Below are positions 26,998 to 32,894 of a stretch of 48,042 nt of DNA, piece after piece (within the stretch, counting starts at the first letter, position 1; every line of letters starts with the position of its first letter). The position numbers and the translations under genes are program-made. The notes beneath the pieces are model-generated. The model was not told where the DNA came from. It saw nothing but the letters and a program-made list of their open reading frames with translations, and made no database searches. Source of the DNA: an uncultured bacterium (lineage in GTDB: Bacteria > Bacteroidota > Bacteroidia > Chitinophagales > CAIODY01); contig CAIODY010000134.1 in assembly GCA_903857255.1 (NCBI GenBank), positions 1 through 48,042 of the forward strand, written 5' to 3'.

Positions 26998-28857
26998 CTA
27001 TCTCCCCATAAATATCATCAACACCTGCACATCGCTGGGTGAAACCCCACTGATTCGGCTTGCCTGACCTAAAGTGGCTGGTTTAATTTTCGTTAGCTTC
27101 TCTCTCGATTCCATCGAAAGCGAACTTAATTTATGGTAGTTGAATGTTTCGGGAATCACCACATCTTCCAGGCGTTGCATTTTCATCACCAATTCCAATT
27201 CTTTGGCAATATAGGTTTCGTACTTCATTTGTATTTCTGCCTGTTCCCTTTCTTCCAATGTGAAAGGCTCTAAAAACGATTTAACGCTGGGTATTTTATT
27301 TAAGTCTTCTATTTTCACTTGTGGACGGAGAGCAATGAGTGCCAGTTTTTGCCTTTGGGTCAGCTCGGCACTGTTCAAGCTCAACAACAATTCATTGATT
27401 TCCAATGGTTCAACGCTTGTTTTTTCAAAATGCGAAATTATGGCTTTTGCGTTGTTTCGCTTTTTTTCTGTTTTTTGCATTCTGTCCTCTTTTGCCAATC
27501 CGAGCTTATAGGACAATTCCGTTAATCTTAAATCGGCATTATCTTGTCGCAAAATCATTCGGTATTCGGCTCGGCTGGTAAACATGCGATAAGGTTCTTC
27601 CGTTCCTTTGGTGATTAGGTCATCAATCAACACCCCGATATAAGCATCGTTTCTTCCTAAAATAAATGGTTGTTCTTCTTTCACCGCTAAATGTGCATTT
27701 ATGCCAGCCATCAACCCTTGGCAGGCTGCTTCTTCATAACCCGTTGTTCCGTTTATCTGCCCTGCAAAAAACAGGTTCTTCACCAGCTTTGTTTCTAAAG
27801 TATGTTTCAATTGAGTTGGGGGAAAATAATCATACTCAATGGCATAGCCAGGGCGGAAGAATTTTACGTTTTCAAATCCCGGCACTTGTTGCAATGCCTT
27901 GTATTGCACTTCTTCGGGCAGCGAAGTTGAAAATCCATTCACATAGATTTCCACCGTGTTCCATCCTTCGGGTTCTACAAATATCTGGTGTCGGTCTCTT
28001 TCGGCAAAGCGATTGATTTTATCTTCGATGCTCGGGCAGTATCTTGGTCCTGTGCCTTCAATTCGCCCCGAATACATCGGCGAACGGTCGAATCCTGTCT
28101 TTAAAATATCATGTGCGTTTTGGTTGGTGTACGTTATCCAACAACACCTTTGTTGCTTCGGCTTTGGAATATCTAGGTATGAAAAGCCCACAATTTCTTC
28201 ATCCCCATCCTGCACTTCCATTTTGGTATAGTCCAACGAACGTCCATCAATCCGTGGTGGCGTTCCTGTTTTTAATCTGTCGGCATCAAAGCCTAACGAA
28301 ACTAATTGTTCTGTAATTCCTGTGGCTGCTTTTTCTGCTAATCTGCCACCGCCAAATTGTTTTTCGCCAATGTGAATGATACCATTTAAAAAAGTTCCAC
28401 TGGTTAGTACGACTGATTTTGCTTTTATCTCCATTCCCATTCCCGTTTTCACACCACAAACCTTTCCGTTTTCTACCAGCAAATTGACCACCATGTCCTG
28501 AAAAAAATCAACGTTAGGTGTTTGCTCCAACATGTTTCGCCATTCCGCAGCGAATAGCATCCTGTCGTTTTGCGTTCTTGGGCTCCACATCGCTGGTCCT
28601 TTCGAGCGGTTCAACATTCTGAACTGAATCATGCTTTTGTCGCTTACAATTCCCGAATAGCCACCCATAGCATCTATCTCTCTTACTATTTGTCCTTTTG
28701 CCACACCACCCATAGCAGGGTTGCAACTCATTTGGGCAATGGTTTGCATATTCATGGTTATCAATAAAACTTTGCTGCCCATATTGGCAGCGGCAGCGGC
28801 GGCTTCGCATCCTGCATGACCAGCGCCTGCAACAATAACATCGTAAGAGTTAAACAT
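26998..28857 (-). CDS. mnmG: tRNA uridine-5-carboxymethylaminomethyl synthesis enzyme MnmG
   Basis: 619 residues. FAD-binding GAGHAGCEAA (11-20) at the N-terminus, SCNPAMGGVAKGQ and EIDAMGGYSG next, then GTPPRIDGRS, GYAIEYDYFPP and the GQINGTTGYEEAACQGLMAGINA signature. The C-terminal helical domain ends SGVSPSDVQVLMIF. With MnmE (not in the window) it modifies U34 of certain tRNAs. mnmG (gidA) is often near the replication origin, and two parS sites lie in its 192-bp upstream gap. Confidence 0.98.
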   Translation of the reverse strand: MFNSYDVIVAGAGHAGCEAAAAAANMGSKVLLITMNMQTIAQMSCNPAMGGVAKGQIVREIDAMGGYSGIVSDKSMIQFRMLNRSKGPAMWSPRTQNDRMLFAAEWRNMLEQTPNVDFFQDMVVNLLVENGKVCGVKTGMGMEIKAKSVVLTSGTFLNGIIHIGEKQFGGGRLAEKAATGITEQLVSLGFDADRLKTGTPPRIDGRSLDYTKMEVQDGDEEIVGFSYLDIPKPKQQRCCWITYTNQNAHDILKTGFDRSPMYSGRIEGTGPRYCPSIEDKINRFAERDRHQIFVEPEGWNTVEIYVNGFSTSLPEEVQYKALQQVPGFENVKFFRPGYAIEYDYFPPTQLKHTLETKLVKNLFFAGQINGTTGYEEAACQGLMAGINAHLAVKEEQPFILGRNDAYIGVLIDDLITKGTEEPYRMFTSRAEYRMILRQDNADLRLTELSYKLGLAKEDRMQKTEKKRNNAKAIISHFEKTSVEPLEINELLLSLNSAELTQRQKLALIALRPQVKIEDLNKIPSVKSFLEPFTLEEREQAEIQMKYETYIAKELELVMKMQRLEDVVIPETFNYHKLSSLSMESREKLTKIKPATLGQASRISGVSPSDVQVLMIFMGR

Positions 28858-28896
28858 TGTTGTTAAATCTATTTATTTGATGGTGTTTGTTTTTTA

Positions 28897-28904
28897 AAAA
28901 GTTA
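28897..28904 (-). promoter_or_regulatory. Possible -7 element of mnmG
   Basis: Minus-strand TAACTTTT, one base off TAnnTTTG, about 40 bases before the mnmG start. The first parS site begins 10 bases upstream of it, so ParB binding could overlap the promoter. Confidence 0.35.
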
Positions 28905-28913
28905 TAACGCCTG

Positions 28914-28929
28914 CGTTTCACGTGGAACA
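28914..28929. promoter_or_regulatory. parS: parS site 1 (ParB-binding centromere)
   Basis: CGTTTCACGTGGAACA matches the conserved bacterial 16-mer TGTTTCACGTGGAACA at 15 of 16 positions, including the whole GTTTCACGTGGAAC core. It lies between mnmG and the ABC-2 permease gene. ParB clamps load at such sites and recruit SMC. Confidence 0.93.
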
Positions 28930-29005
28930 TTGCGCTGGATTTGTTTGGAATTGGTTGAGACAACCCAGGGCTATGGTTTTGCTACCCTGTGTTCTGTTTA
29001 AGTCT

Positions 29006-29021
29006 TGTTTCACGTGGAACA
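29006..29021. promoter_or_regulatory. parS: parS site 2 (ParB-binding centromere)
   Basis: TGTTTCACGTGGAACA is a perfect match to the canonical parS 16-mer. It is in the same orientation as site 1, with 92 bases between site starts. Confidence 0.96.
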
Positions 29022-29049
29022 AAAGCACAAAGCCATGATTATCAACTAA

Positions 29050-30153
29050 TTACTCCCATTTAAAGGTTTTTATTGCCACGGCATAAACCACTACTCCCCA
29101 AGCTAACATAATCAGCAATTGGATTTTTACATCCCACAAATTCAACCCGTCGAAAGCAATTTTTCGCATTGCTTCGTTCATATAAGTCAGCGGTAAAGCT
29201 TTGCTGATTGGCTGCAACCATTTCGGAAAAACCTCAACAGAAAAAAATGTTCCGGCTAACAAAAACTGTGGCATCGTAATAATATTTGCCAGTGGCGGAA
29301 TACTTGCTTCGTTTTTGGCTAAACCACTAATAATAAACCCAAACCCCATAAAGATGATTAATCCAAAAGCACATAAAAAAAGCATTTCGAGCACCGTGTA
29401 TATGCCGTGAACCAAGGTAAAATGAAAGAAAAATTTTCCAATCAAAATAATTATCAAAGCGGCGGTGAGTTGAAAAATAAGTCTGCTCATCATCTCTCCT
29501 ATAATAATACTTGCCTTGGAAACGGGTGTTGCAAAAAATCTTTTAATCACCAAGGTTTGCCGCAAACTAAAAAACACAAATGCTGCCCCAAAAACCCCGG
29601 CACTTAACATTGAAAAACCAATTTGCCCCGGTAAAATAAAATCAATAGTTTGATACACCCTGGCTTCAACTGGTGGAGGAGTATTGATAATAGCAAACTT
29701 TTGAAAGTTGGGCAATTCTTTTTCAGAAATCCTAGAAACAACTTCCTTGACAACACTTTTAAATAATTGTCCGTTCTGTATTGAAACAGTTGATGTTTGA
29801 ACGTTTAGTTGATAAACAGAAATGCTATCATCAGTTTTTCGTATAGAAACTATCGCATCCAACTTTCCCTTTAATAGGGCTACATTTTTTTCTTCCGTTG
29901 TTCCAGAATGAATAATAGTGTTCGAATCAGTGCACATCCATTGGTAAATCGGATTAAGTGTGTCGCTATTCTGTGCAATTGCAATATCGAAATGATAATT
30001 ATTTCTTCCGCCAATAAAGCCAAAAACTAAAATAAAAATAATTGGAAACGCTAAGCTGAAAACAACAGCCGACGGGCTTCGTAGCATACTACGCAAACTG
30101 GCTTTAGTAATAGCCAGTGTCGCCTTTACATGATTATACTTCTTTTCTTCCAT
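29050..30153 (-). CDS. ABC-2 type transporter permease
   Basis: 367 residues from the ATG at 30151-30153 (MEEKKYNHVKATLAITKASLRSMLRSPSAVVF); a TTG at 30180 is less likely. It has an N-terminal membrane helix (AVVFSLAFPIIFILVFGFIGG), a large extracytoplasmic domain (~45-190), and five further membrane helices. FGFIISGLAKNEASIPPLANIITMPQFLLAGTFF and YMNEAMRKIAFDG are typical of ABC-2 permeases. No ATPase subunit is adjacent. Substrate is unknown; drugs, polysaccharides or antimicrobial peptides are possible in this family. Confidence 0.9.
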   Translation of the reverse strand: MEEKKYNHVKATLAITKASLRSMLRSPSAVVFSLAFPIIFILVFGFIGGRNNYHFDIAIAQNSDTLNPIYQWMCTDSNTIIHSGTTEEKNVALLKGKLDAIVSIRKTDDSISVYQLNVQTSTVSIQNGQLFKSVVKEVVSRISEKELPNFQKFAIINTPPPVEARVYQTIDFILPGQIGFSMLSAGVFGAAFVFFSLRQTLVIKRFFATPVSKASIIIGEMMSRLIFQLTAALIIILIGKFFFHFTLVHGIYTVLEMLFLCAFGLIIFMGFGFIISGLAKNEASIPPLANIITMPQFLLAGTFFSVEVFPKWLQPISKALPLTYMNEAMRKIAFDGLNLWDVKIQLLIMLAWGVVVYAVAIKTFKWE

Positions 30154-30227
30154 TTTGATTAATCCACAATTTACCCACAAATGTAGTGTTTAACCACAAT
30201 TGATGCGTTTTGTTTTGGTAGAGAAAT

Positions 30228-30235
30228 TATATTTG
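30228..30235 (+). promoter_or_regulatory. Putative -7 element for scpB-nadD
   Basis: TATATTTG matches TAnnTTTG, 27 bases before scpB. A TTTTG lies about 15-19 bases further upstream. Confidence 0.5.
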
Positions 30236-30262
30236 CGACGAAATAAACAGAACAACTAAATA

Positions 30263-30838
30263 ATGGAAAAAATTCAACAACAAATAGAGGCATTAATTTT
30301 TTCGGCTGAAGTGCCACTTACTATAAAAGATATCCAGGAATGTTTGAGTAAACGTTTTGGTTTGTTTGTAGCCGATGCTGATATTCAGGCGGCGGTAAAT
30401 AATTTAATGGAAAAATATCAGAACGATAATTTTGCTATCGAAATAAAAGGCATTTCAGAAGGCTATCAGTTTTTCACAAAGGAACAATACTACGAAACCG
30501 TTTCGGTGTTGATGAAAGAAAAAAATGTAAAACGATTGACTACTGCAGCCATGGAAACCTTAGCTATCATAGCTTATAAACAACCCATCAGCAAAGGTGA
30601 GATTGAACAAATCCGTGGCGTAAGTGTGGATTACTCTATTCAAAAATTATTAGAAAAAGAGTTGATTGTACCTGCTGGCAGGAGCGAAGGATTGGGAAAA
30701 CCAATGCAATACGCTACCTCACAACAATTTATGGATTACTTCGGTATTAGTTCGGTGGGAGATTTACCAAAGCTGAAAGATATTCAACCAATGGATGAAG
30801 CATCAAGCGCTGGAACGCCCGTGGAACAATTAAATTAA
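30263..30838 (+). CDS. scpB: Segregation and condensation protein B
   Basis: 191 residues, composed of two winged-helix domains. IEALIFSAEVPLTIKDIQE at the start and AMETLAIIAYKQPISKGEIEQIRGVSVDYSIQKLLE are ScpB hallmarks; the end is YFGISSVGDLPKL. ScpB dimers bind ScpA and SMC to form the condensin that ParB loads at parS. Two parS sites lie about 1.3 kb away, and a putative oriC lies 0.6 kb downstream, so its context fits. It is followed 5 bases later by nadD, which it is probably co-transcribed with. Confidence 0.96.
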   Translation: MEKIQQQIEALIFSAEVPLTIKDIQECLSKRFGLFVADADIQAAVNNLMEKYQNDNFAIEIKGISEGYQFFTKEQYYETVSVLMKEKNVKRLTTAAMETLAIIAYKQPISKGEIEQIRGVSVDYSIQKLLEKELIVPAGRSEGLGKPMQYATSQQFMDYFGISSVGDLPKLKDIQPMDEASSAGTPVEQLN

Positions 30839-30843
30839 TCATT

Positions 30844-31419
30844 TTGAAAATCGGTTTATTCTTTGGTTCGTTTAATCCAATTCATGTTGGGCATTTGGTT
30901 ATTGCTAATCATTTGGCTGAATACACTGATTTGAAGCAGGTTTGGCTGGTTGTATCACCACAAAATCCGTTGAAAGAAAAAGAAACTTTATTGAATGAAT
31001 ATCACCGGCTTGATTTAGTGAACACAGCGATTGAAGGCAACAGTAAATTAAAATCGTGCGATATTGAATTCAAATTACCAAAGCCGAGTTATACGATTGA
31101 TACGCTCCAATATTTAAAAGAAAAACATCCCAAACATCAGTTTTGTATCATCATGGGAAGTGATAATATTGTTTCGTTTCATAAATGGAAAAACGCCGAA
31201 ACAATTTTAAACAACTATCCAATTTATGTTTACAAACGCAGTGGTGATGAGGTTTTACCGTTGCAAAAAAAATATCCTAAAGTAAATTTTTTAGAGGTGC
31301 CTTTGTTAGATGTAAGCTCTTCTTTAATTCGAAAAATGATTAAAGAAAAAAAATCGGTTCGTTATCTTTTGCCTGAAAACGTTTATGAGCAAGTGATTCA
31401 GGGTGGTTATTATAAATAA
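30844..31419 (+). CDS. nadD: Nicotinate-nucleotide adenylyltransferase
   Basis: 191 residues, transferring AMP to nicotinate mononucleotide in NAD synthesis. The nucleotidyltransferase motif GSFNPIHVGH (His14, His17) and C-terminal DVSSSLIRK (the ISSTxIR motif) are present. The start is TTG at 30844; it is only five bases after the scpB stop and no ATG or GTG precedes the essential KIGLFFGSF strand, so TTG is well supported. nadA, another NAD gene, lies downstream across the putative oriC. Confidence 0.95.
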   Translation: MKIGLFFGSFNPIHVGHLVIANHLAEYTDLKQVWLVVSPQNPLKEKETLLNEYHRLDLVNTAIEGNSKLKSCDIEFKLPKPSYTIDTLQYLKEKHPKHQFCIIMGSDNIVSFHKWKNAETILNNYPIYVYKRSGDEVLPLQKKYPKVNFLEVPLLDVSSSLIRKMIKEKKSVRYLLPENVYEQVIQGGYYK

Positions 31420-31916
31420 GTTATAAAGTTCATTAAGTCTGTACAGTTGTAAAGCCAGTAATTAACCTCTTAAATCCTTTATGATAAAGTCTTTCACCCA
31501 CTTACCAACACTATGTGAATTTTAATGTGTGAATACCGTGTTCCTAAATGTTGATAAAAAGTGTTTGTTAAAAAGCCTAAAGTTATGCCTGTTGATAACC
31601 GATTTACGAACCAAAAAAATATAGTTGCGGACAGAGATTGTGCATAAAAAAGAAAAGTATTTATACACATTTTACTTTACACACAGCTTGTTAATAAACT
31701 AAAGAAATGAGTAAAATCAATAGTTTGCAGTGTGGATTACGAAGTGAATAAGTGTTTTAAAATTGTATAACTCTTAAAGCAAGTGAAAATGAAAATTGTT
31801 TCGCACTAATCCACAGCCTTAATAATTAATGATAATAATCTACTTTAAATATTAATTACTAATTAGAACGTGAGGAGTGAGTTTGTAAATCAAATTTTGT
31901 TGTGAATCTTTGCAGC
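31420..31916. other. oriC: Putative chromosome replication origin (oriC) with DnaA-box cluster
   Basis: A ~497-base gap with no gene. DnaA-box-like 9-mers (TTATNCACA type): TTATACACA at 31661-31669 and TGTGCATAA (reverse) at 31639-31647 fit exactly. One-mismatch forms are at 31528-31536, 31549-31557, 31590-31598, 31677-31685, 31731-31739 and 31807-31815. The right part (31819-31867) is extremely AT-rich, suiting an unwinding element. parS sites lie 2.5 kb away, with scpB and mnmG near. This is inference from sequence; no cumulative skew could be computed. Confidence 0.72.
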
Positions 31917-32894
31917 ATGAATTTAGAAAAAATAAAACAAACAGGATTTGTGGATGAAACCATTGACCCAACTTTAGATTTGTTTGAAGAAATAAAAAAA
32001 TTAAAAAAAGAAAAAAATGCAGTGTTGTTGGCGCACTACTACCAAGATGCCGACATTCAGGACATAGCAGATTTCATCGGTGATAGTTTGCAACTTTCGC
32101 AAGAAGCTGCAAAAACAAATGCGGATATGATTGTGTTTGCTGGTGTGCATTTCATGGCTGAAACAGCAAAAATTATTTCACCACAAAAAAAAGTTGTATT
32201 GCCCGATTTGAAGGCTGGATGCAGTTTAGCAGATAGTTGTCCGCCAGAATTATTTGCAAAATTTAAAGCAAAATATCCTGACCATGTGGTGGTGAGTTAC
32301 ATCAATTGTTCTGCTGAAATAAAAGCTTTGACGGATATTGTTTGCACATCGAGCAATGCCGAAAAAATTATCAATTCTATTCCAAAAGACAAAGGAATAA
32401 TCTTTGCACCCGATAAAAATTTAGGGGCTTATTTGATTAAAAAAACTGGTCGCGATATGGTGTTGTGGAATGGTGCTTGTATGGTGCATGAAATTTTTTC
32501 GTTGGAAAAAATAATCAAATTGAAAGAGCGAAATCCAAAAGCAAAATTATTAGCGCATCCTGAATGCGAAGAAGCAGTTTTAAATAAGGCTGATTATATT
32601 GGCTCTACAACTGGTATTTTAAATTTTTCACAGGAAGATAGTTGTCAGGAATTTATTGTTGCCACCGAAACAGGCATCTTACATCAAATGATGAAAGCTT
32701 CACCCAATAAGACTTTTATACCAGCTCCGCCAAATAATAATTGCGCTTGCAACGATTGCCCACACATGAAACTGAATACGCTGGAGAAAATTTATTTATG
32801 CCTAAAACATGAACAGCCCGAAATTATTTTAGATGAAACTATGCGAAAAAAAGCCGAAGGAAGTATTTTAAGAATGTTGGAAATTAGTAAATAA
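31917..32894 (+). CDS. nadA: Quinolinate synthase A
   Basis: 325 residues from ATG 31917 (a GTG at 31902 would add five residues). It condenses iminoaspartate with dihydroxyacetone phosphate to quinolinate, using a [4Fe-4S] cluster. Recognisable parts: [33 protein letters not shown], cluster cysteines Cys102 (KAGCSLAD), Cys188 (WNGACMVHE) and the [10 protein letters not shown] segment (276-284). It sits immediately after the putative oriC and ends at a terminator shared with gltX. nadB and nadC are not in the window. Confidence 0.96.

Follow-up and report, generated by a model that had tools for sequence, protein, structure and literature searches.

The window, that is, the whole stretch of DNA analysed here, is the entire contig C134 (48,042 bp), one of the 134 contigs that make up the 2.97-Mb draft genome of a Bacteroidota bacterium. 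The region of interest contains, in order, mnmG (-), two parS sites, an ABC-2 permease gene (-), scpB (+), nadD (+), a gap of 497 bp, nadA (+) and gltX (-). Its features are as follows.

26998-28857, minus strand: mnmG (gidA), TIGR00136, 847 bits; conserved neighbour of parS and of the candidate origin
28914-28929, plus strand: parS site 1, CGTTTCACGTGGAACA, 15/16
29006-29021, plus strand: parS site 2, TGTTTCACGTGGAACA, 16/16, exact
29050-30153, minus strand: ABC-2 type permease, a bystander gene
30160-30198, plus strand: three near DnaA boxes (30160, 30171, 30190) in 39 bp of the 109-bp permease-scpB gap
30263-30838, plus strand: scpB, SMC-Scp complex subunit, TIGR00281, 131 bits
30844-31419, plus strand: nadD, nicotinate-nucleotide adenylyltransferase, TIGR00482, 173 bits
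31420-31916, no strand: candidate oriC, gene-free, 29% GC, six one-mismatch DnaA boxes
31549-31557, minus strand: DnaA box TTATCAACA
31590-31598, minus strand: DnaA box TTATCAACA
31639-31647, minus strand: DnaA box TTATGCACA, fits TTATNCACA
31661-31669, plus strand: DnaA box TTATACACA, fits TTATNCACA
31731-31739, minus strand: DnaA box TAATCCACA
31807-31839, plus strand: basal-unwinding-like element, with DnaA box TAATCCACA, spacer GCCT and triplet tract TAATAATTAATGATAATAAT
31819-31870, no strand: 87% A+T stretch, the putative unwinding region, not the single most A+T-rich stretch of the window
31917-32894, plus strand: nadA, quinolinate synthase, TIGR00550, 400 bits; downstream of the candidate origin element

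The block from mnmG to nadA (26999-32892) is collinear with its counterpart in the sister species G002 (L097:6391-12305), at 91.5% identity. Beyond mnmG-parS-scpB-nadD-oriC-nadA there is no collinearity with G002; the sequence diverges on either side, and the breakpoints fall at the ends of genes. Because only this block is collinear, its flanks may have been recently rearranged or misassembled, in which case the local skew could be young or a join wrong. G002 also has a second NadA copy (C97:2669-3577, L246), which is 90% identical to the NadA of the window, has no boxes upstream and is either a paralogue or contamination.

The two parS sites, one perfect and one matching at 15 of 16 positions, lie where the original prediction had placed them, within the 192-bp gap between the start of mnmG (28857) and the 3' end of the permease gene (29050). 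No further copy with up to 2 mismatches is found in the whole 2.97-Mb draft. Among the 299 genomes of the order, 186 contain parS, against 3 with a control pattern, and mnmG adjoins parS in many relatives. In the window the sites are ~2.9 kb (about 3 kb) from the nadD-nadA gap. They show the properties of a parS centromere, being 16 bp long, near-unique and proximal to the candidate origin. As in ParABS centromeres (the TGTTTCACGTGAAACA family), two 16-bp sites are clustered near the putative origin, and ParB and SMC are encoded in the genome itself: the cognate ParB on contig C81 (C81:69024-69533, 182 bits) and full-length SMC on contig C57 (1002 bits). The present case differs in that parB lies on another contig, the sites adjoin mnmG, and a nearby scpB was detected only in the genus. 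The start of scpB (30263) is 1.24 kb from parS, inside the 1.3 kb first given. The presence of scpB in the presumed origin centre thus holds, but its position beside parS was detected only within the genus, and scpB next to parS was rejected as a conserved feature. Its proximity is also a weak argument because a protein that acts in trans can be encoded at a distance from parS.

The gap between nadD and nadA, described earlier as a gene-free AT-rich stretch of about 500 bp, measures 497 bp and has 29% GC. Six 9-mers within it (31420-31916) are one mismatch from TTATCCACA (31549-, 31590-, 31639-, 31661+, 31731- and 31807+), making it the densest DnaA-box cluster of the window. Dinucleotide shuffles of the same gap contained 0.17 boxes on average and 3 at most, and 0/2000 reached six; this is an intergenic DnaA-box cluster beyond chance, as is characteristic of oriC. 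Of the "two exact and about six near" boxes counted previously, the two exact ones are exact only for TTATNCACA (31639 and 31661, both among the six) and not for TTATCCACA, which has no perfect copy anywhere in the window. A denser cluster elsewhere, named beforehand as a finding that would speak against the origin, was not encountered in those parts of the genome that the scans covered.

The nadA side of this gap carries a box-GC-trio element at 31807-31839 that the earlier reading of the sequence overlooked. It was discovered by comparing the regions upstream of nadA at the best NadA loci in named genomes. These regions share a block composed of a ..TTCACA or ..TCCACA box, four usually GC-rich bases, TAATAGTAGTAG or TAATAATAATAG, and then A+T-rich DNA. 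The block is kept upstream of nadA in Chitinophaga, Niastella, Terrimonas, Sediminibacterium, Hydrotalea and Sphingobacterium, with weaker versions in Pedobacter. In the window the trio-like tract spans 31820-31839; it is irregular and slips by one base. Since the strict trio pattern has no exact match in this genome, a weight matrix and an alignment were used instead. The matrix, built from 24 loci that are all from other genera, with this family left out, gives its highest score in the window to the 31807 site (11.6 bits; the runner-up has 6.4) and 19.9 bits to the element of G002. In the gap alignment the element is present in all three members of the genus, with AATCCACAGCC-N-TAATAA kept throughout; in one of them, G001, the gap is much diverged and holds, besides the element, eight boxes, two of them perfect. 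Judged by eye, 31807-31839 also agrees with the definition of a basal unwinding system (BUS) in PMC8287927: at least three NAN triplets occur no more than 16 bp from a box, and the flank is A+T-rich. According to PMC6669920 and PMC8287927, the layout of this system is a DnaA box, a GC-rich spacer and DnaA-trios. Like the BUS of Bacillus subtilis oriC and its relatives, the element found here consists of a DnaA box, a short GC spacer, a triplet tract and A+T-rich DNA, in equal order and polarity, but it differs from the Bacillus subtilis BUS in having a single AATCCACA or TTCACA box, a 4-base spacer and an imperfect trio run.

It might also be supposed that parS and mnmG mark the origin region while initiation takes place in another nearby gap, the 109-bp one between permease and scpB, or that a bipartite origin uses both gaps. 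The three near boxes within 39 bp at 30160-30198 are found in G002 as well, and bipartite origins are known in other bacteria, for example Helicobacter pylori (PMC8235120). However, G002 is too close for an independent test, no trio tract was found in the permease-scpB gap, and the gap on the nadA side has more boxes together with the conserved unwinding element, so that we regard such an arrangement as quite improbable. The boxes at 30160-30198, a group that the earlier reading of the sequence had also overlooked, are a possible accessory sub-origin cluster.

A search independent of gene content likewise points to the nadD-nadA gap. The 20-base pattern CACANNNNTAATARTARTRG was searched for in 299 genomes of the order, with the reversed pattern as control. 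It matches 46 genomes of one family (f21), exactly once in 44 of them, whereas the reversed control matches 2 genomes of f21. Outside this family 6 genomes matched, which is not above the control (10). At 26 of the 30 pattern loci fetched, the start of nadA lies 63-161 bp downstream on the same strand (family and distance tallies are manual counts of the listed places). In the 17 genomes listing both element and parS on one contig, the two are 2.9-15 kb apart. That A+T-rich intergenic DNA would simply yield box-like and trio-like strings by chance could be argued from the imperfect boxes and irregular trio tract of this genome and from TTATCCACA having no genome-wide enrichment (29 against 35 in the control); yet the shuffles never reached six boxes, position and order are conserved in other genera, and 44 of the 46 genomes of f21 have a single match, which leaves this explanation with a negligible probability.

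Two genomes of the same family, G004 and G005, have no element at nadA. Near their parS-mnmG, the gap after an nth-like gene carries a comparable series of box, spacer and triplets on the opposite strand (CATTTCCACAGCATAATAATAATGATAAG in G004). The link with nadA is hence not universal and that with parS-mnmG persists, because in these genomes the element sits by parS-mnmG and not by nadA. The gaps concerned (L100:8307-8680 and L104:8221-8590) lie 1.2 kb from parS-mnmG and are candidate non-nadA origins.

Regular arrays of DnaA boxes were observed in two Chitinophaga strains. Chitinophaga sp. CP_BE_BS_R2_1 (L016:11988-12862) has 15 boxes on one strand with a regular spacing of 61-62 bp, ~1 kb downstream of nadA and 1.4 kb before parS; this tandem array could titrate DnaA or extend the origin. 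The second regular array near an origin is in Chitinophaga sp. E66 (L069:18391-18614), where four boxes (three perfect, one TTATACACA) are spaced by 71-72 bp downstream of mnmG.

GC skew shows no switch inside the window (left +0.025, right +0.008), and the skew at fourfold sites within the window gave nothing decisive. In four relatives (Chitinophaga sp. E66, G009, G312 and G174) the skew turns from minus to plus at the homologous locus or within ~0.2 Mb of it. In the complete genome of Chitinophaga sp. E66 (CP079103) the change from minus to plus falls at 5.50-5.81 Mb; nadA (5.617 Mb) sits at the change point, and dnaA is at 0.109 Mb. In the single-contig genomes G312 and G174, each represented by ten 20-kb samples symmetric about the element, the mean skew is -0.039 on the left and +0.035 on the right (Mann-Whitney p=0.003), and dnaA is 0.89 Mb and 0.86 Mb from the element, respectively. 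In G009 the switch is located between 0.79 and 0.97 Mb and nadA at 0.975 Mb, the signal being blurred by a low-GC segment. In the genome under study dnaA is on another contig (C53), and in single-contig relatives it is ~0.8-1.9 Mb from the element. The locus is therefore not a dnaA-adjacent oriC, just as the original prediction of an origin away from dnaA had it.

The origin could still be placed elsewhere, near dnaA on C53 or at another pair of boxes, leaving the nadD-nadA cluster as a DnaA-regulated promoter region of nadA or a DnaA-titrating site. Besides the unswitched skew of the window and the lack of an element at nadA in G004 and G005, such a location could appeal to pairs of perfect TTATCCACA at C53:13163/13253, 7 kb from dnaA, and at C37:45199/45265; the C37 site reaches 12.6 bits on the matrix, a little more than the 11.6 of the window's site. 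But these other clusters consist of two boxes each, have no trio tract and stand upstream of ribonucleotide reductase and ruvB genes; both parS sites are at the present locus, the whole element is kept in the genus, and in the relatives the skew switches at or near the nadA element with dnaA ~0.8-1.9 Mb off. We consider an origin elsewhere highly improbable.

Three box pairs were rejected individually as origins. The C53 pair sits upstream of a ribonucleotide reductase gene. The C37 pair is upstream of ruvB at a contig end, its TAAAAATT tract is not a trio, and G002 has no equally spaced pair. A pair on C20 was also considered as a rival cluster and rejected. In the C53 pair (C53:13163-13261; L107:8163-8261), whose neighbouring gene encodes a ribonucleotide reductase of class II, two perfect TTATCCACA are separated by 90 bp and dnaA is ~7 kb away. 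G002 has a pair with equal spacing. Possibly the C53 pair serves DnaA control of nucleotide supply.

Taken with the conserved element, the skew of the relatives and the conserved parS linkage, which support the predicted position between nadD and nadA, the 497-bp gap (31420-31916) very probably serves this Bacteroidota bacterium as its chromosomal replication origin, which would function through DnaA melting and a parS-ParB-SMC scheme. This reading draws on the sequence elements, their conservation and spacing, the relatives' skew and the presence of dnaA, parB, smc and scpB; its molecular steps are modelled on the known protein families. DnaA (contig C53) would load on the box array and on the 31807 box. 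Its filament would then grow past the GC spacer along a single strand of the trio-like tract (31820-31839) and melt the neighbouring 87% A+T stretch, the presumed site of helicase loading. ParB (contig C81) is expected to bind both parS sites 2.9 kb off, marking the newly copied origin for segregation, and ParB on parS, with spreading, would load SMC-ScpAB (smc on contig C57, scpB at 30263).

In Escherichia coli, oriC lies in the order gidA-oriC-mioC, with mnmG/gidA close by and dnaA elsewhere. The present locus has the same nearby mnmG/gidA and distant dnaA, but nadD and nadA flank the box cluster instead of gidA and mioC, and the unwinding element is of the trio type. Among Bacteroidetes, a position of oriC remote from dnaA is common (PMC4755523). 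For two members of the Flavobacteriaceae, the genome papers report oriC at mnmG, consistent with skew (PMC11278836, PMC12843772; one figure legend in PMC11278836 has the labels of the sites swapped). Origins of gut bacteria, Bacteroidetes among them, are marked by parS clusters together with skew and coverage and are not always at dnaA (PMC10197239). The origins predicted by Ori-Finder in Mariniflexile, Algorimicrobium and Prevotella (PMC11278836, PMC12843772, PMC4755523) resemble the present one in being far from dnaA and in that box cluster or prediction agrees with skew, and the Flavobacteriaceae pair (PMC11278836, PMC12843772) also has mnmG next door to the origin. In contrast to these three, the box cluster here is ~3 kb from mnmG and directly upstream of nadA, with parS in between. 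An origin far from dnaA and near mnmG is already published for Bacteroidota, and this one is a well-supported further case. The unwinding element locked to nadA seems undescribed so far: no link between nadA and oriC in Bacteroidetes was found in the papers searched.

The putative melting element is fixed 63-161 bp upstream of nadA in many genera, with nadD on the opposite side in the genus studied here. It is conceivable, if rather unlikely, that DnaA assembly controls quinolinate synthase and NAD supply, or that transcription of nadA controls initiation, which would constitute an origin-NAD switch particular to this clade.

The origin position would be fixed to within ~500 bp in a group of Bacteroidota for which some genome records start their numbering at dnaA. 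The short signature, together with nadA and parS, would allow draft and metagenome-assembled genomes to be oriented and growth rates to be estimated from coverage. We know of no biochemistry of a basal unwinding system for this clade, and none was found for Bacteroidota in the papers searched; the element is ready material for testing such a system in this phylum.
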